57,333 nt of DNA, from assembly GCA_002898275.1 (NCBI GenBank), contig BEIQ01000008.1:1-57333 (forward strand), given 5' to 3'. Position numbers and translations under genes: made by a program. Each line of letters begins with the position of its first letter. Position 1 is the first letter of the stretch. This document shows positions 51,281-57,333 of this stretch, in pieces. The stretch comes from a bacterium HR40 (GTDB taxonomy: Bacteria; Pseudomonadota; Alphaproteobacteria; Geminicoccales; Geminicoccaceae). The notes below the pieces were generated by a model that did not search any database, was not told the origin of the DNA, and was given only the letters and a program-made list of their open reading frames with translations.

Positions 51281-52921
51281 CTACATGTTGGCGTAGTTCG
51301 GACCGCCACCGCCTTCCGGCGCCACCCAGTCGATGTTCTGGGTCGGATCCTTGATGTCGCAGGTCTTGCAGTGCACGCAATTCTGGAAATTGATCTGTAG
51401 CCGCTTCCCCCCTTTTCCGTCGTCGACGAACTCGTACACCGCCGCCGGACAGTAACGCTGTTCGGGCCCGTCGTATTTCGCCAAGTTGATGCGGACGGGC
51501 ACTTCGGGATCGCGCAGCTGCAGATGGCAGGGCTGATCTTCCTCGTGATTGACGTTCGCCAGATAGACCGAGCTCAATCGGTCGAAGGTGATCCGGCCGT
51601 CCGGCTTGGGATAATCGATCTTCGGCGCCTTGGCGGCCTCCACGAGACACTCGTGGTCGGCATGGTGGCGGAACGTCCACGGCGCCCGACCGCGCAGCAC
51701 ATAGGTATCGATGCCGGAATAGAGGAGACCGCCCCAGAGGCCGAAGCGGAAGGAGGGGCGAACGTTGCGAGCGCGGTAGAGCTCGTCCCACAGCCAACTC
51801 TGGCGCAACCGCTCGGGATAGCTCTCCAGGAGGGGCCGATCGGCACCGGCCGCGAGCGCCTCGAAGGCGCATTCCGCCGCCACCATGGCCGACTTCATCG
51901 CCGTGTGGGTGCCCTTGATCTTCGGCACATTGAGGAAGCCAGCGCAGTCGCCGATGAGCGCCCCGCCCGGAAAGACGAGCTTGGGGATCGCCTGGAACCC
52001 TCCCTCGACCAGGGCCCGGGCGCCATAGCCGATGCGCCGGCCACCCTCGAACAGGGGGCGGATGGCCGGATGCCGCTTGAACCGCTGCATCTCCTCGAAG
52101 GGCGAGAGATGGGGATTGCGGTAGTCGAGCCCGATCACGAAGCCATAGGCGAGAAAGTTGTCGCCCCAGTGATAGAGGAACGAGCCGCCATAGGTCCGCC
52201 AGTCGAGGGGCCAGCCCACCGTGTGGACGATCTTGCCCGGCTCGTGCTTGGCCGGGTCGATCTCCCACAGCTCCTTGATGCCGATCGCATAGGTCTGCGG
52301 CCCGATCCCGTCGCGCAAGCGGAAGCGTTCCGTCAAGCGCTTCGTCAGATGGCCGCGGCAGCCCTCGGCGAACAGCGTGAGCCGCGCCCGGAGCTCCATA
52401 CCGGGCTGGAAGTTCGGACCCGGCGTGCCGTCGCGCCGCACCCCCATGTCCTTGGTCACCACCCCGCACACCCGTCCGTCCTCGTCATAGAGCACATCGG
52501 CGGCGGGAAAGCCGGGGAACACATCGATGCCCATCGCCGTCGCCTGCTCGCCGAGCCAGCGGCAGAGGTTGGACAGGCTCACGATATAATTGCCCTCGTT
52601 GCGCATCTGCGGCGGCGTCGGCAGGCGAAAGGCCCGCTTTTCGGTGAGCAAAAGGAAGCGATCCTCCCGCGCCGGCGTGGCGAGCGGAGCACCGCGCTCG
52701 CGCCAGTCGGGAAAGAGCTCGCCCAGCGCGCGCGGCTCGAGCACCGCACCGGAAAGGATATGGGCGCCCACTTCCGAGCCCTTCTCGAGGACCACGATCG
52801 CCAGCTCGCGACCGGCGGCATCGGCGAGCTGCTTGAGGCGAATGGCAGCGGTGAGACCGGCAGGACCGGCCCCGACGATGACGACATCGACCTCTAGGCT
52901 CTCGCGCGCGATGGCGGCCAT
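51281..52921 (-). CDS. etfD: Electron transfer flavoprotein-ubiquinone oxidoreductase
   Basis: Passes electrons from ETF (fatty and amino acid oxidation) to ubiquinone at the inner membrane. The 546 residues include FAD-binding VIVGAGPAGLTAAIRL, VLEKGSEVGAHILSGAV, the quinone-pocket region HTVGWPLDWRTYGGSFLYHW, and the C-terminal [4Fe-4S] ligands CPAAVYEF and NCVHCKTCDIKDP. ATG 52921 gives the normal N-terminus; the frame continues to 53020 without conservation. A candidate minus-strand promoter about 270 bases upstream may serve this gene, the proposed tracrRNA, or both. Confidence 0.95.
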   Translation of the reverse strand: MAAIARESLEVDVVIVGAGPAGLTAAIRLKQLADAAGRELAIVVLEKGSEVGAHILSGAVLEPRALGELFPDWRERGAPLATPAREDRFLLLTEKRAFRLPTPPQMRNEGNYIVSLSNLCRWLGEQATAMGIDVFPGFPAADVLYDEDGRVCGVVTKDMGVRRDGTPGPNFQPGMELRARLTLFAEGCRGHLTKRLTERFRLRDGIGPQTYAIGIKELWEIDPAKHEPGKIVHTVGWPLDWRTYGGSFLYHWGDNFLAYGFVIGLDYRNPHLSPFEEMQRFKRHPAIRPLFEGGRRIGYGARALVEGGFQAIPKLVFPGGALIGDCAGFLNVPKIKGTHTAMKSAMVAAECAFEALAAGADRPLLESYPERLRQSWLWDELYRARNVRPSFRFGLWGGLLYSGIDTYVLRGRAPWTFRHHADHECLVEAAKAPKIDYPKPDGRITFDRLSSVYLANVNHEEDQPCHLQLRDPEVPVRINLAKYDGPEQRYCPAAVYEFVDDGKGGKRLQINFQNCVHCKTCDIKDPTQNIDWVAPEGGGGPNYANM

Positions 52922-53067
52922 GACCCCGACCCAGTGGCTGGCGGCCGGTCGCTCTCCGGCCCTCTTTCCGAAGCCGCCGCTAGCACGAGCGCAGGCCGCG
53001 GAAAAGCGACGAAGCGCCATCGCCTCGCGCAGCGACGACCACCCACGAGCCCCTTCGATCGACCGGG

Positions 53068-53192
53068 AAAAAACAGAACGCCCGCGAGGAGATCCCCCCT
53101 CCCCTCCAGCGAAGCCGAAGGGGAGGGGGTAACCCTACGGATAGTTGCCTATCCTTGCCGTGGAACCGCCACGGCCTTCCCTGTGCTAAGCG
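53068..53192 (-). ncRNA. Candidate tracrRNA upstream of cas9
   Basis: Proposed from four observations. First, the minus-strand promoter TTGCCA-N16-CTATAA (53199-53226) predicts a start near 53192. Second, the RNA runs through a 7-bp hairpin (53157-53175) and then AAGGATAG-GCAA-CTATCCGT (53137-53156). The AAGG plus TCCGT arrangement recalls the nexus that follows the anti-repeat in known tracrRNAs. Third, an 11-bp GC stem (53095-53129) could end it, with a T6 run at 53068-53073 further on. Fourth, no other gene occupies the region. The CRISPR repeat is outside the window, so the anti-repeat (expected within about 53157-53192) is untested. An ordinary etfD leader is the alternative. Confidence 0.45.
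53095..53129. repeat. 11-bp-stem GC palindrome between etfD and cas9
   Basis: CCCCCTCCCCT (53095-53105) and AGGGGAGGGGG (53119-53129) are perfect complements around a 13-base loop CCAGCGAAGCCGA. It looks like the dispersed REP-type palindromes of GC-rich proteobacteria and could act as a terminator in either direction. Only one copy is present in this window. Confidence 0.6.
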
Positions 53193-53196
53193 GCGC

Positions 53197-53226
53197 TGTT
53201 ATAGGATCGGGCTGCCCCTTTGGCAA
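53197..53226. promoter_or_regulatory. Overlapping promoters between cas9 and the tracrRNA candidate
   Basis: Minus strand: TTGCCA (complement at 53221-53226), 16 bases, CTATAA (complement at 53199-53204), reading away from cas9. Plus strand: an extended -10 TGT-TATAGG (53197-53205), reading into cas9 with a leader of about 36 bases but no good -35. The -10 elements overlap, as at fumC/rimP. Confidence 0.5.
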
Positions 53227-53247
53227 GGCATTTTCGGAGGTGCCGTC

Positions 53248-56200
53248 ATGGCTCGCGTGCTCGGACTCGACATCGGCATTGGCTCCTGCGGCTGGGCGGT
53301 CGTGGAACTGCCCGAGATCGACCCCGAAACCGGCGAGATCGCGGGGGAGTTCGCCATCCTCGGCTGCGGAGTGCGGGGGTTCCAGGTACCCGAGGAACCC
53401 GACACCCGCGAGCTCAAGAACAAGCAACGCCGCCAGAAGCGCGGCCAGAGGCGGGTGATCGCCCGCCGCCGTCTGCGCATGCGGCAGATCCGCCGGCTCC
53501 TGAGGGAGCAGGGGCTCCCCGCCGATCCCGGGCCCCTGCCTCCCGGCTCGCCGCACGACCTCGTCTGGCGGCTGCGGGTGGAGGGCCTCAGCCGTCTCCT
53601 CGCACCGGCGGAGTGGGCACGGGTGCTCATCCACATCGCCCGCCACCGCGGCTTCCGCGCGACCAGCAAGCGCGACCGCAACAGGGGGGCCGAGAGCCGC
53701 CTCGCCGCGACGCCGGCGTCGGAGCCGGACGAGTCCCTCACCTACGCCCAGCGGGTGATGCGAATAGCGGCGGCGGAAGGCTGCTACCGCAATCGCGTCG
53801 GACGGTCCGAGCCGACCCCGCCGTCGCGCGACGAGGTGGAGCGGCAAAGCCGCGCGCGAGCTTTTGGCGTCGATCGCACGCCGTTGCGCGACGAGGTGGA
53901 GCGGGAAGCCCAAAGACTGTTCGAGGTCCAGCGCCGCTTCGGCAATCCCGCGACTTCGCCCGACTTCGAGCGCCAGTATCGACATACCGCCTTCAGCCAG
54001 CGGCCGCTGCAGGGGATCGCGGAGCTCGTCGGCCGCTGCCGCTTTCTGCCGGAAGAGAAGCGCGCCCCCAAACAGGCGCCCTCCTTCGAGCTCTTCCGCT
54101 TCCTGCAAAGCCTTGCTCACTTGCGGCTGGTGGAAAGCGGCTCCCGCGAGCGGCCGCTCGGCGCGGAGGAACGGCGCCAGGCGGAAAGCCTGTTCGCCAC
54201 CCGCAAGCACGTCACCTACGCCCAATTGCGCAAGCGACTGGGTCTGGCGCAGGATGTCCGGTTCGCCGGCCTCGTCTCCTCGCGCAAGAATCCTGCGCGC
54301 AAGAGTCCGGAAAATCCCGAAGACAAGACCTTCGCGAGCTGCGAGGGTTCCCATCTGCTGGCCGAGGCCCTCGGCAGCCAACGCTTCTTCCAACTCCTCG
54401 ACCAGGCGCCCGAGCAGCTGGACCGGGCGGCCGAGATCCTCATCCGCGAAGAGGACATCGCCACCATCCGCCAGCGCCTGGCGGAGGCCGGCTTTCGCCC
54501 CGAGGAGGTGTCCGCCCTCACCCGTGACGAGGTGCTCGACACCGTGAGCGGCTTCAAGGGGGTCGGCCATATCTCGACCGCCGCCTGCCGCCGCCTGATC
54601 CCGCATCTGCGAGAGGGCCTATCCTATACCGAAGCCTGCGCGCGCGAGGGCTGGGATGCGACCGCCGAGGGCGACCTCCGCCTGGAAGACGTGCGCAATC
54701 CGGTGGTACAGAAAATCCTGCGCGAGAGCCTCAAGCAGATCGACGTGGTCGTTCGCGAGTTCGGCGAACCGGATCGCGTGCACCTCGAGATGGCGCGCGA
54801 CATCGGCAAGAGCCCCTTCGACCGCCGCGCCATCGCCAGGGCCATCCAGGAGCGGACCAAGGAACGGAACGACAGAGCCAAAGAATTCGAGAACTTGTTG
54901 AACCGCCAACCGAACGACGAAGAATTGCTGCGCTTCGAACTGTGGAAGGAACAGGGTGGGCGCTGCCCCTATACCTTTCCCGACGAGTCCGCCTACATCC
55001 CGGTCGAAGCCCTGATCGCCAGCGACAATCGGGTACAGGTGGACCACATCTACCCCTATTCGCGCTCGGGGGACGACAGTTTCCGCAACAAGGTCCTGTG
55101 TTGGACCTCGGCCAATCAGCAAAAGCGCCGGCGCACGCCTTTCGAGTGGTTCTCCCAGGACCGGCCCGATTTGTGGGAGGCGTTCGAGAAGCGGGTGCAA
55201 CACGACTTTCCCCACATGCACAAGGAGAAGAAGCGCAAGCTCCTCGCCCGCAGCTTCGCCGAGCGCGAGACCGAATACCGGCGGCGTCATCTCAACGACA
55301 CCCGCTATGCCATGCGGGTGCTCGCCAGCGCGCTGCGCCAGCGCTTTCCGACTGTCGGCACACGGCGCGTGTTCGCGCGGCCCGGACAGATCACCGCCAT
55401 CGTGCGCCGCGCCTGGGGTCTCGATTCGCTCAAGCGGAACAACGAGCTCGGCGACCGCGACCATGCCCTCGATGCCATCGTCGTGGCCTGCACCAGCGAG
55501 AGCCTGCTCAACCGCCTCACCCGTTTGCACCAAAGGCTCGAGGAGCTCGGCCGCGGTCGCCTCGTGCCGGAGATCGAAACGCCCCTCGGCAGCAGCAGCG
55601 AGGCGCGCGAGCGCTTTCGCACGCTGGTGAAACGAACGGTCGAGGCGGTGCTGGTCTCGCGCAGCGAGACGCGACGCGGACGCGGTCCGCTGCACGGCGA
55701 TACGCTCTATGCTTTCACCCGCCTTCCCGACAACTCCGAGATCCAGTACGAACGCAAATACGTATGGGAGCTGACCCGAGCGGACCTCGACCGCCTCAAG
55801 GATCACGACACCCGGGGCCGGAGGGTGCGGGAAGCGCTCGAGGAATGGTTCGAGCGGGCAGAACGCGCCGAGAAAGATCTCGGCAAGACGTCCCGCGCCG
55901 AGAAACTCCAGCACTTCTGGCGCCAGAGCCCGCCCCGGATCGGCCAGGGTCCGGCGATCCGACGGGTGCGGCTGAAACGGCGCACCACCGCCGGGATCAA
56001 GTTGCGGCGGGGAGAGGGGGTCGCGCACGCCGACCAGGAGACGATGGTGCGGATCGACGTGTTCGAACATGACGGCAAATATTCCATCGTCCCCATCTAC
56101 GCCTGGCAGCTCGCCCTTCTCGACAGCCCGCCCAACCGCGCGGTCAGGAGCGGTAAGGGGGAAGACGAATGGGAGGAGATCGGGCCAGAGCATCGTTTCC

Positions 56201-56457
56201 TCTGGTCCCTCTATCCCGGGTCCTTCATCAAGGCGGAGACCAGAGACGGCAAAACTTTCAAGGGTTACTATCGGTCTTTCGATCGCAATACGGTGCGAAT
56301 TAGCATCACTCCCCCTCACCTCTGGGATAGCCGCGCCATCGAGCGCTTCGGCAGCCGGACGCTCGCGCGCTTCGAGAAATGGCATGTGGACCGGCTCGGC
56401 CGGCTGAGCCGCATCGCGCAGGAGGTGCGAACATGGCGTGGCGAGCCGTGCTCCTGA
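53248..56457 (+). CDS. cas9: CRISPR-associated endonuclease Cas9, type II-C
   Basis: RNA-guided DNA nuclease of 1069 residues, in the compact II-C size range. Order: RuvC-I with D8 in LGLDIGIGSCGW; arginine-rich bridge helix (about 56-85); recognition lobe; RuvC-II with E514 in VHLEMARDIG; HNH with D599 and H600 in QVDHIYPYS, then N614 and N623; RuvC-III with H739 and D742 in DHALDAIVVA; a C-terminal WED/PAM-interacting region. That region resembles Neisseria Cas9 (KYSIVPIYAWQ at 944-954, FEKWHVDRLG at 1042-1051). All catalytic residues are kept. ATG 53248 follows CGGAGG. Residues about 192-219 carry a duplicated motif. It overlaps cas1 by 25 bases. Confidence 0.95.
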   Translation: MARVLGLDIGIGSCGWAVVELPEIDPETGEIAGEFAILGCGVRGFQVPEEPDTRELKNKQRRQKRGQRRVIARRRLRMRQIRRLLREQGLPADPGPLPPGSPHDLVWRLRVEGLSRLLAPAEWARVLIHIARHRGFRATSKRDRNRGAESRLAATPASEPDESLTYAQRVMRIAAAEGCYRNRVGRSEPTPPSRDEVERQSRARAFGVDRTPLRDEVEREAQRLFEVQRRFGNPATSPDFERQYRHTAFSQRPLQGIAELVGRCRFLPEEKRAPKQAPSFELFRFLQSLAHLRLVESGSRERPLGAEERRQAESLFATRKHVTYAQLRKRLGLAQDVRFAGLVSSRKNPARKSPENPEDKTFASCEGSHLLAEALGSQRFFQLLDQAPEQLDRAAEILIREEDIATIRQRLAEAGFRPEEVSALTRDEVLDTVSGFKGVGHISTAACRRLIPHLREGLSYTEACAREGWDATAEGDLRLEDVRNPVVQKILRESLKQIDVVVREFGEPDRVHLEMARDIGKSPFDRRAIARAIQERTKERNDRAKEFENLLNRQPNDEELLRFELWKEQGGRCPYTFPDESAYIPVEALIASDNRVQVDHIYPYSRSGDDSFRNKVLCWTSANQQKRRRTPFEWFSQDRPDLWEAFEKRVQHDFPHMHKEKKRKLLARSFAERETEYRRRHLNDTRYAMRVLASALRQRFPTVGTRRVFARPGQITAIVRRAWGLDSLKRNNELGDRDHALDAIVVACTSESLLNRLTRLHQRLEELGRGRLVPEIETPLGSSSEARERFRTLVKRTVEAVLVSRSETRRGRGPLHGDTLYAFTRLPDNSEIQYERKYVWELTRADLDRLKDHDTRGRRVREALEEWFERAERAEKDLGKTSRAEKLQHFWRQSPPRIGQGPAIRRVRLKRRTTAGIKLRRGEGVAHADQETMVRIDVFEHDGKYSIVPIYAWQLALLDSPPNRAVRSGKGEDEWEEIGPEHRFLWSLYPGSFIKAETRDGKTFKGYYRSFDRNTVRISITPPHLWDSRAIERFGSRTLARFEKWHVDRLGRLSRIAQEVRTWRGEPCS
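53821..53904 (+). repeat. In-frame 24-bp direct repeat with palindromes inside cas9
   Basis: Bases 53821-53844 recur at 53881-53904 with 23 of 24 identical, exactly 60 bases (20 codons) apart; the products are PSRDEVER and PLRDEVER. Between and within the copies lie GCGGC-AAA-GCCGC (53841-53853) and GGCGT-N7-ACGCC (53866-53882), and TCGCGCG (53824-53830) is inverted as CGCGCGA a few bases beyond the first hairpin. The combination resembles an inserted palindromic element that kept the reading frame. Confidence 0.75.
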
Positions 56458-57326
56458 CCGGTCGCGCGCGGCTGCGGCTCAACCAGCAATGCTGCCTCGT
56501 CGAGCGCGACGAGGGGGAGATCCGCCTCGCCTTTGAGGACCTCGCCGGGGTCGTCCTCGACACCCCCGAGGTCTCCCTCTCCTCGGCCCTTCTCGCGCGC
56601 TTTGCGCGCGAGAAGGTGCTCCTCGTCACCTGCGACGAGCGCCATCTGCCCAACGGCGCCCTGCTGCCGCTCCAGGGTCATTTCCGCCAGCTCGCCACCC
56701 TTCGCCGGCAGCTCGCCCTTCCCCTCAAGACCAAGAAACGGCTGTGGCAGCGGCTCATTGCCGGCAAGGTGGCGAACCAGGGCCGGGTGCTCGCCCGCTT
56801 CGGCCACAAGGAGGCCTCGGCTCTTTTCGCCATGGCCGAGCGGGTCGCCCCGGGCGATCCCGACAACATCGAGGCGCGGGCAGCTCGCGACTATTTCGCT
56901 CGCCTCTTCCCCGACTTCCGCCGTCGACCGCGGGAGGGCGACCTATGCAACGCCATGCTCAACTACGCCTATGCCCTGCTGCGGGCCGGGCTCGCACGAG
57001 CCCTCGTGGCTCAGGGTTTCCATCCAGCCCTGGGCATCTGGCACGACAGCGTCGACAACCCCTTCAACCTTGCCGACGACCTCGTCGAGCCCTGGCGCCC
57101 ACTCGCCGATCTCCACGTGGCCCACCACTTGGGCGCGCGCCAATCCGCGCCCGATGAGCTCACCACCGAGGATCGCCGTGAGCTCGCGCGGCTTTTGGTG
57201 AGCGAACTGCGCCTCGACGGCCAGATCACCACCTTGTCCTGGGCGCTCGAGCGCTTCGTCGACAGTTTTCTTTTGGCCATCGAGCAGCAGCGCGCCGAGG
57301 CTCTGCTGCTTCCTGAACCGGTGTGA
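56433..57326 (+). CDS. cas1: CRISPR-associated integrase Cas1, type II
   Basis: Metal-dependent integrase that inserts new spacers with Cas2. The 297 residues match type II Cas1 in length. Predicted catalytic residues are E147 in NIEARAARDYF, H204 in LGIWHDSVDNPFN and E219 in ADDLVEPWRPL; the H-to-E spacing of 15 is the type II pattern. ATG 56433 has GGAGG 7 bases upstream and lies inside the end of cas9, so the two are translationally coupled. cas2 begins 4 bases after its stop. Confidence 0.95.
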   Translation: MAWRAVLLTGRARLRLNQQCCLVERDEGEIRLAFEDLAGVVLDTPEVSLSSALLARFAREKVLLVTCDERHLPNGALLPLQGHFRQLATLRRQLALPLKTKKRLWQRLIAGKVANQGRVLARFGHKEASALFAMAERVAPGDPDNIEARAARDYFARLFPDFRRRPREGDLCNAMLNYAYALLRAGLARALVAQGFHPALGIWHDSVDNPFNLADDLVEPWRPLADLHVAHHLGARQSAPDELTTEDRRELARLLVSELRLDGQITTLSWALERFVDSFLLAIEQQRAEALLLPEPV

Positions 57327-57330
57327 GACC

Positions 57331-57333
57331 ATG
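57331..57333 (+). CDS. cas2: First codon of the next gene, probably cas2 (cut by window edge)
   Basis: The window ends in ATG four bases after the cas1 stop. In type II-C loci the gene after cas1 is cas2, followed by the repeat-spacer array. Only the start codon is present, so identity is an inference from position. Confidence 0.5.

Follow-up and report, generated by a model that had tools for sequence, protein, structure and literature searches.

The window, the whole stretch of DNA analysed here, is contig C8 (57,333 nucleotides), one of the 8 contigs of a 2.89 Mb genome, and it carries type II cas genes close to its end. The cas9 gene (53248–56457, plus strand) encodes a protein of 1069 residues that matches TIGR01865 at 560 bits, as well as PF13395 and PF18541. 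It is a full open frame with the RuvC and HNH domains expected of a type II-C enzyme, and residues D8, E514, D599, H600, N623, H739, and D742 are invariant in an alignment of six Cas9 sequences; by comparison with the known Cas9 motifs, these would be the catalytic positions. The protein is at most 45% identical to the closest relatives found, and the other 30 genomes of the order contain no Cas9 match at E ≤ 1e-100. A type II cas1 gene (56433–57326, plus strand; TIGR03639, 259 bits against a cut-off of 120) adjoins cas9, as is usual in type II-C loci. The ATG at 57331–57333 (plus strand), at the very end of the contig, is the expected start of cas2, judging from the known type II-C gene order. 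Searches of the genome gave no match to cas2, with a control that was found in 7 of 14 genomes, and none to csn2, with a positive control that was likewise silent. The assembly is rated 100% complete, although cas2 is absent from it; since C8 stops at the would-be start codon, the contig gap can explain the missing gene. RNase III is encoded in the genome. The stretch of interest, 53068–53226 on the minus strand, is read away from cas9, and directly beyond it, on the same strand, is the gene for ETF-QO.

The window itself contains no CRISPR array. A search of the genome with bases 52900–53400 returned, besides that segment, 13 hits with E ≤ 0.001. All of them are at the beginning of contig C2, and their spacing in multiples of about 67 bases reveals an array (C2:1–903) of 13 full repeats and one more that is cut by the contig start. 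The repeat, GCCGTGGTTCCCCCACGGTCTCCCCTGTGCTAAGCAC on the crRNA strand, is 37 bases long, close to the roughly 36 bases of type II-C systems, and recurs with a period of 67 (37 + 30); the arrays of seven relatives that were measured have a period of 66. The repeats run from the contig start in the same direction as those of the relatives, with the CCACGGC end on the cas9 strand. Although cas9 and the array are on different contigs, the expected order is C8, a gap that would hold cas2, and then C2. The array would in that case be linked to cas9 across the gap, following the cas genes and transcribed in the opposite direction, an order and direction suggested by the pairing described below and by the relatives.

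Bases 1–233 of C2, which comprise three spacers and their repeats, are identical to bases 671–903. Either a block of ten spacers is truly duplicated or the contig end overlaps itself, and the identity may be the cause of the assembly break at this place. Of 385 genomes of the class, just this one carries the repeat when up to 2 mismatches are allowed, and the exact 21-base core of the repeat has no match in viral contigs. Comparison of the array with 50,697 phage and 72,556 plasmid records yielded no match to any spacer, nor did 20-base seeds from 5 of the 10 distinct spacers match viral contigs (0 of 5). With no spacer targets found, there was no basis for deriving a PAM.

The reverse complement of the repeat aligns to 53157–53193 of the minus strand, where 30 of 37 letters are identical and 31 of 36 positions pair when wobbles are included; the stretch thus holds an anti-repeat complementary to the repeat of its own genome. 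An earlier note on this DNA had placed the anti-repeat at 53157–53192, correctly to within a base, and had proposed alignment to the repeat as the check, expecting complementarity of roughly 15 bases or more and no clear anti-repeat elsewhere in the locus. The array on C2 supplied the repeat for that alignment, and the outcome upheld the prediction. Moreover, the pairing ranks first among 5728 sixty-base stretches of the window, at −65.6 kcal/mol against −48.3 for the best place elsewhere and a background mean of −26.4 (sd 5.5). The calculated energy of the repeat:anti-repeat duplex is −63.9 kcal/mol, as compared with −12.2 and −13.0 for the separate hairpins, a gain of roughly 39. Letter for letter, 10 of the first 11 bases of the anti-repeat agree with the repeat, whereas in 42 relatives the median is 3 and the maximum 8. 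A longer duplex than that of the relatives was considered and is not claimed, because with gaps and wobbles allowed the relatives pair no fewer positions of the repeat (median 31, maximum 35) than the 31 paired here.

The minus strand from 53060 to 53197 folds better than all of 200 shuffled sequences (z −3.5), and every sequence element that the earlier note listed between 53226 and 53068 is present, some of them with a different meaning. The 7-bp hairpin, GCCGTGG-CGGTT-CCACGGC (53157–53175), exists as described, yet it arises from the self-complementary 3′ half of the anti-repeat, which folds back and would pair with the repeat instead whenever crRNA is present. It is followed by AA and then, at 53154–53139, by the hairpin GGATAG-GCAA-CTATCC, which precedes GT exactly as had been noted; by its fold and its place in the covariance model introduced below, this is the nexus. 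Its likeness to the AAGG...TCCGT nexus of Streptococcus pyogenes is a coincidence of letters: the stem letters of the relatives differ, with compensating changes. A third hairpin of 16 pairs, wobbles included, spans 53129–53094 and corresponds to the GGATTACCCC...GGGGGATTCC element of many relatives. Its outer 11 pairs, read as unbroken Watson–Crick pairs, are the GC stem of 11 bp that the sequence had first suggested. The anti-repeat is thus followed by a nexus and a 3′ hairpin, the arrangement that characterizes tracrRNAs.

Promoter-like elements lie immediately before the anti-repeat. The note had read TTGCCA-N16-CTATAA; both motifs are there (CTATAA at 53204–53199), but a better reading is TTGCCA at 53221–53226 (−35) and TATAAC at 53198–53203 (−10), 17 bases apart on the minus strand, with 10 of 12 consensus letters. 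A strict sigma-70 scan of 52800–53500 listed no promoter; that scan demands the final T that TATAAC lacks. Among the relatives, TTGAC occurs 24–50 bases before a common anchor at 53 of 59 loci (median 34 bases), compared with an average of 1.5 loci and at most 6 in 200 shuffles, and the −35 element of the window is 44 bases before the same anchor. Judging from the distance of 6–8 bases after the −10 element, the RNA would begin near 53190–53192, where the anti-repeat sets in.

The 3′ end is less sharply indicated. The run of six T residues at 53068–53073 was correctly seen, about 20 bases past the third hairpin, and is a possible transcript end, although it does not directly follow a hairpin, and a terminator scan did not list the GC stem together with it. 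Within the stretch inspected, a run of four T residues is present in 39 of 59 relatives, the median distance from the AA behind the anti-repeat being 64 bases; the corresponding distance here is 81. When the RNA is co-folded with the repeat and its tail is extended to the T run, the lowest-energy structure opens the nexus, whereas with an end at 53084, 53086, or 53093 both the nexus and the third hairpin form. The favoured reading is a transcript that would end soon after the third hairpin.

A broader view of the locus comes from the relatives. The six-sequence Cas9 alignment retrieved 115 of them, at one genome per species, and the best 80 were kept. An array is detectable in 57, and in 49 of these the anti-repeat precedes cas9 and is on the opposite strand, with a median distance of 83 bases to the beginning of the cas9 match. 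It is on the cas9 strand in 6 (L086, L095, L096, L098, L099, and L100), which according to their record titles are an armatimonad, a synergist, Paenibacillaceae, and Clostridia. In the other 2 no anti-repeat was found; the contig positions at which their cas9 matches begin are 21 and 145. The array starts 1251–1302 bases past the end of the cas9 match in 45 of the 57 relatives and 1310–2474 bases past it in the rest. Two observations on individual genomes may be added. A metagenome-assembled genome (JAIUOD01, Proteobacteria HYPHO1 spades-bin.45) carries two related Cas9 loci (L079, L080) with nearly the same repeat and tracrRNA, and in one genome of the class a related cas9 matches two overlapping but separate open frames (L018, L020; G117:C104:16400–19347).

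For structural comparison, 59 of the 80 loci were anchored and 21 missed. A first covariance model (R1), with an automatically derived structure, caught only 8 pairs and was replaced by a model with a hand-written structure (R2), built from the 36 of 59 anchored relatives that have a compact nexus and third hairpin; 23 were set aside by eye, and the window was held out. The sole match to R2 in the window, up to E = 10, is 53077–53182 on the minus strand (32.5 bits, E 5.6e-8). This is also the best match in the genome (E 2.8e-6; 150 of 638 candidates scored), ahead of a stretch of CRISPR repeat on C2 with 18.4 bits (E 0.027) and a short segment of contig C5 with 16.6 bits (E 0.087). R2 matches at the same place in 60 of the 80 relatives, or in 24 of 44 when the training set of 36 is removed. 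It also matched many CRISPR arrays (606 matches in all), because anti-repeat and repeat share letters, and a stricter cut was used for the count of pairs. The score of the window is below those of all 60 matched relatives (46–92 bits), which marks it as a divergent member of the group.

Covariation supports the stems themselves. Across 60 relatives, 14 of the 15 pairs in the nexus (helix 1) and the third hairpin (helices 2 and 3) change on both sides, compared with a mean of 9.7 in shuffles, 2 of 500 of which reach as many. The covariation score is 0.488, compared with 0.186 ± 0.011 in shuffles (0 of 500 as high), and 149 double-change cells fall in the stems, as against 38.7 ± 7.1. Because the alignment was fitted to the model structure, the counts lean towards that structure, and the guard against this is a control in which the partners are slid by 1–3 columns, whereupon the score falls to 0.13 or less. 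The repeat and the anti-repeat also covary in trans: 19 of 36 positions change on both sides among 43 loci, the window included, and 98 double-change cells are seen, compared with 32.6 ± 6.3 when repeats are re-dealt among loci (0 of 500 as high). The shuffles, for the stems and in trans alike, leave the relatedness of the sequences in place, so that the counts are not probabilities. The window takes part in this joint change. Where the relatives commonly have CGGTAG, its repeat and its anti-repeat both have CCGTGG.

Pairing with the repeat of the same genome, a match to a model from which the window was withheld, the layout of the relatives, and covariation thus bear out what the earlier note had predicted, and 53068–53226 (minus strand) is almost certainly the tracrRNA gene of a type II-C CRISPR-Cas9 system, read away from cas9. 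Its layout is the usual one among the relatives, and the gene is that of an ordinary, rather divergent type II-C tracrRNA. By the mechanism proposed, an RNA of about 100–125 bases would start near 53191, and its first 35 or so bases would anneal to every repeat of the pre-crRNA. First contact would probably be made between the exposed 5′ end of the anti-repeat and the exposed 3′ end of the repeat, whereupon the two hairpins would open into the long duplex. RNase III would cut the repeat:anti-repeat duplex, the nexus and third hairpin would hold the crRNA:tracrRNA pair in Cas9, and Cas9 would cut DNA that matches the spacer. Transcription, processing, loading into Cas9, and the connection of cas9 with the array over the contig gap are the presumed part of this scheme.

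Among the alternatives, one accepts the gene as real but considers it the decayed remnant of a dead locus that has lost cas2 and whose array is no longer linked. The absence of cas2 from the genome, the lack of any spacer target among the records searched, and a model score that is low for an RNA of this kind would all fit. Against these stand an intact Cas9 frame with the expected catalytic residues, and 13 full repeats that are identical over the 34 letters compared. In addition, 31 positions of the anti-repeat pair with the repeat of this genome, against no more than 29 (median 27) with the repeats of 42 relatives, and the contig ends just where cas2 should begin. Decay is therefore unlikely, though it is the alternative that fares best.

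A second proposal concerns the self-complementarity of the anti-repeat. Its 3′ half forms a hairpin of 7 Watson–Crick pairs, whose closing pair has a probability of 0.989 in the free RNA. The letters of this stem are those of the crRNA duplex in its first 7 pairs, so that the hairpin copies the lower stem of the duplex within one molecule. With G–U pairs allowed, 0 of 59 relatives have 7 such pairs and 2 of 59 have 6. The 5′ half of the repeat folds likewise, with 6 Watson–Crick pairs and one G–U, and at −13.0 kcal/mol it is the most stable of 58 repeats compared (next, −11.5). Since perfect 6-pair stems are common in the repeats (31 of 58, the window's own included; 7 pairs in 3 of 58), it is the place of the inverted repeat that is unusual and not its existence. 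It could be imagined that repeat and anti-repeat are jointly self-complementary so that free tracrRNA locks into a hairpin resembling a single-guide RNA, leaving Cas9 that holds tracrRNA alone either idle or aimed at repeat-like DNA; this is a distinctly improbable idea. If it were true, Cas9 with tracrRNA could be directed to the array, which apparently lacks a PAM, or to a solitary repeat-like element on C2 that is followed by AGG, and would act there as a repressor and not as a nuclease.

No more probable is the companion suggestion that free tracrRNA is also a native single guide, its own hairpin standing in for the lower stem and its 5′ end of about 16–19 bases directing Cas9. Its DNA target would contain CTTAGCACAGGGAAG beside a functional PAM. 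When up to 2 mismatches are allowed, the 15-base guide matches its own gene, the 13 array repeats, and two places outside the array, as many as a control read backwards; one of the two (C2:485943–485957) is intergenic and is followed by AGG. Both mismatches at that site fall in the seed, with the PAM 3 and 7 bases away. Cas9 usually tolerates few mismatches that near the PAM. The other place is followed by TGT, the tracrRNA gene by GCC, and the repeats by ACC, and an exact 11-base seed next to NGG, a PAM assumed from the related EHCas9 as described (PMC10281378), occurs nowhere in the genome. The AGG site, the nearest approach to a target, resembles the repeat over 29 of 37 bases, well beyond the guide part, and a relic repeat therefore explains it. 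The crRNA duplex is, moreover, far more stable than the two hairpins from which it would form. S. pyogenes does offer a proven natural single guide, tracr-L, and its tracrRNAs, tracr-S and tracr-L, share with the present RNA the nexus hairpin and possibly the single-guide fold; that system, in the account available, is of type II-A, and tracr-L is made from a second promoter and is directed at the cas promoter (PMC11417352). Searches of the genome with the guide and its seed found no equivalent of the tracr-L target.

The weakest explanation, that the stretch serves the opposite ETF-QO gene as leader or terminator or is a chance GC-rich fold, could draw on the GC-rich stretch, on ETF-QO directly beyond it on the same strand, and on an Rfam search that returned no tracrRNA match and just one sub-threshold chance match on the other strand, but it is refuted by the match to the CRISPR repeat, with the held-out model match and the covariation, and can be dismissed.

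The solitary element (C2:485924–485960, minus strand) shares 29 of 37 letters with the repeat's reverse complement. The search with bases 52900–53400, which contain the anti-repeat and not the repeat, had not returned it. In a search of the genome with the array as query it scores E 5e-4, beside 7.7e-5 for the anti-repeat of the window, and is the only other repeat-like place outside the array at E ≤ 0.001; the next is at 0.042. Six random 2.9 Mb genomes with the third-order letter statistics of the window gave best repeat matches of 24–26. The element is intergenic, about 27–30 bases before an open frame for a methyladenine glycosylase (PF03352), and a gene for RNA 3′-phosphate cyclase (PF01137) is divergent from it. 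AGG follows its guide-like part. The tracrRNA model has no match within the 3001 bases around it, and it is not near cas genes, so that it is no competitor as tracrRNA. The anti-repeat of the window pairs with it weakly when compared with the cognate repeat (−34.3 vs −63.9 kcal/mol). In the family's other genomes, the 200 bases before 16 glycosylase matches (a fragment match, L169, being left out) hold nothing above shuffles. The element could be a relic repeat, or a site for Cas9 or tracrRNA; the simplest reading would be a relic or stray CRISPR repeat.

The tracrRNA gene also has a place among known systems. In the type II-A system of S. pyogenes, tracrRNA is encoded on the minus strand upstream of cas9. 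That was the precedent first cited for the present gene, and the upstream, opposite-strand position is indeed the rule among the array-bearing relatives; they and EHCas9 (PMC10281378), as far as its description goes, are the nearer precedent. EHCas9, the nearest published system found, is a protein of 1070 residues in a cas9-cas1-cas2 locus whose closest homologues are in Alphaproteobacteria, and its tracrRNA gene is upstream of ehcas9 with a predicted promoter and terminator (PMC10281378). As described there, the likeness to the present locus extends to the cas9-cas1-cas2-array order, to the size of Cas9 (1070 residues there, 1069 here), to a tracrRNA gene that is about 100 bases long, precedes cas9, and has a predicted promoter of its own, to nearest homologues in Alphaproteobacteria, and to an array apparently read in the direction of the tracrRNA (PMC10281378). 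In contrast, its repeats have 36 bases, whereas those of this locus have 37 and a self-complementary 5′ half, and it has an NGG PAM and a cas2 gene, the latter not seen here (PMC10281378). Within a Cas9 clade, tracrRNA genes are reported as a rule to keep their position and direction (PMC7606464), and a type II-C array can, by one account, run opposite to the cas operon (PMC3936727).

The type II-C relatives are, by their record titles, mostly Alphaproteobacteria, including Magnetospirillum, Azospirillum, Tistrella mobilis, Rhodopila, Bombella (L075, L077), and others (among L021–L083, L092). Like the present locus they have an anti-repeat opposite cas9, then AA and a nexus, and often GGATTACCCC...GGGGGATTCC; their −35 element is TTGAC, and their repeats begin with GCCGTGG on the crRNA strand (CCACGGC at the end on the cas9 strand; 43 of 55 near-full-length repeats). 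They differ in that their repeats have 36 bases, with a last third that matches the anti-repeat poorly letter for letter, and in that their Cas9 proteins are no more than 45% identical to that of the window. An inverted repeat, CCTACC...GGTAGG, further distinguishes 29 of 55 of their repeats (among L022–L082); it may have a role in spacer integration.

No long-standing question is answered by this gene. What it does provide is the set of guide-RNA parts, namely the repeat, the tracrRNA, and their direction, for one more type II-C Cas9 of 1069 residues, and these parts are enough to design and test a dual guide for the enzyme. The repeat and the anti-repeat are, in addition, seen to change together in trans.
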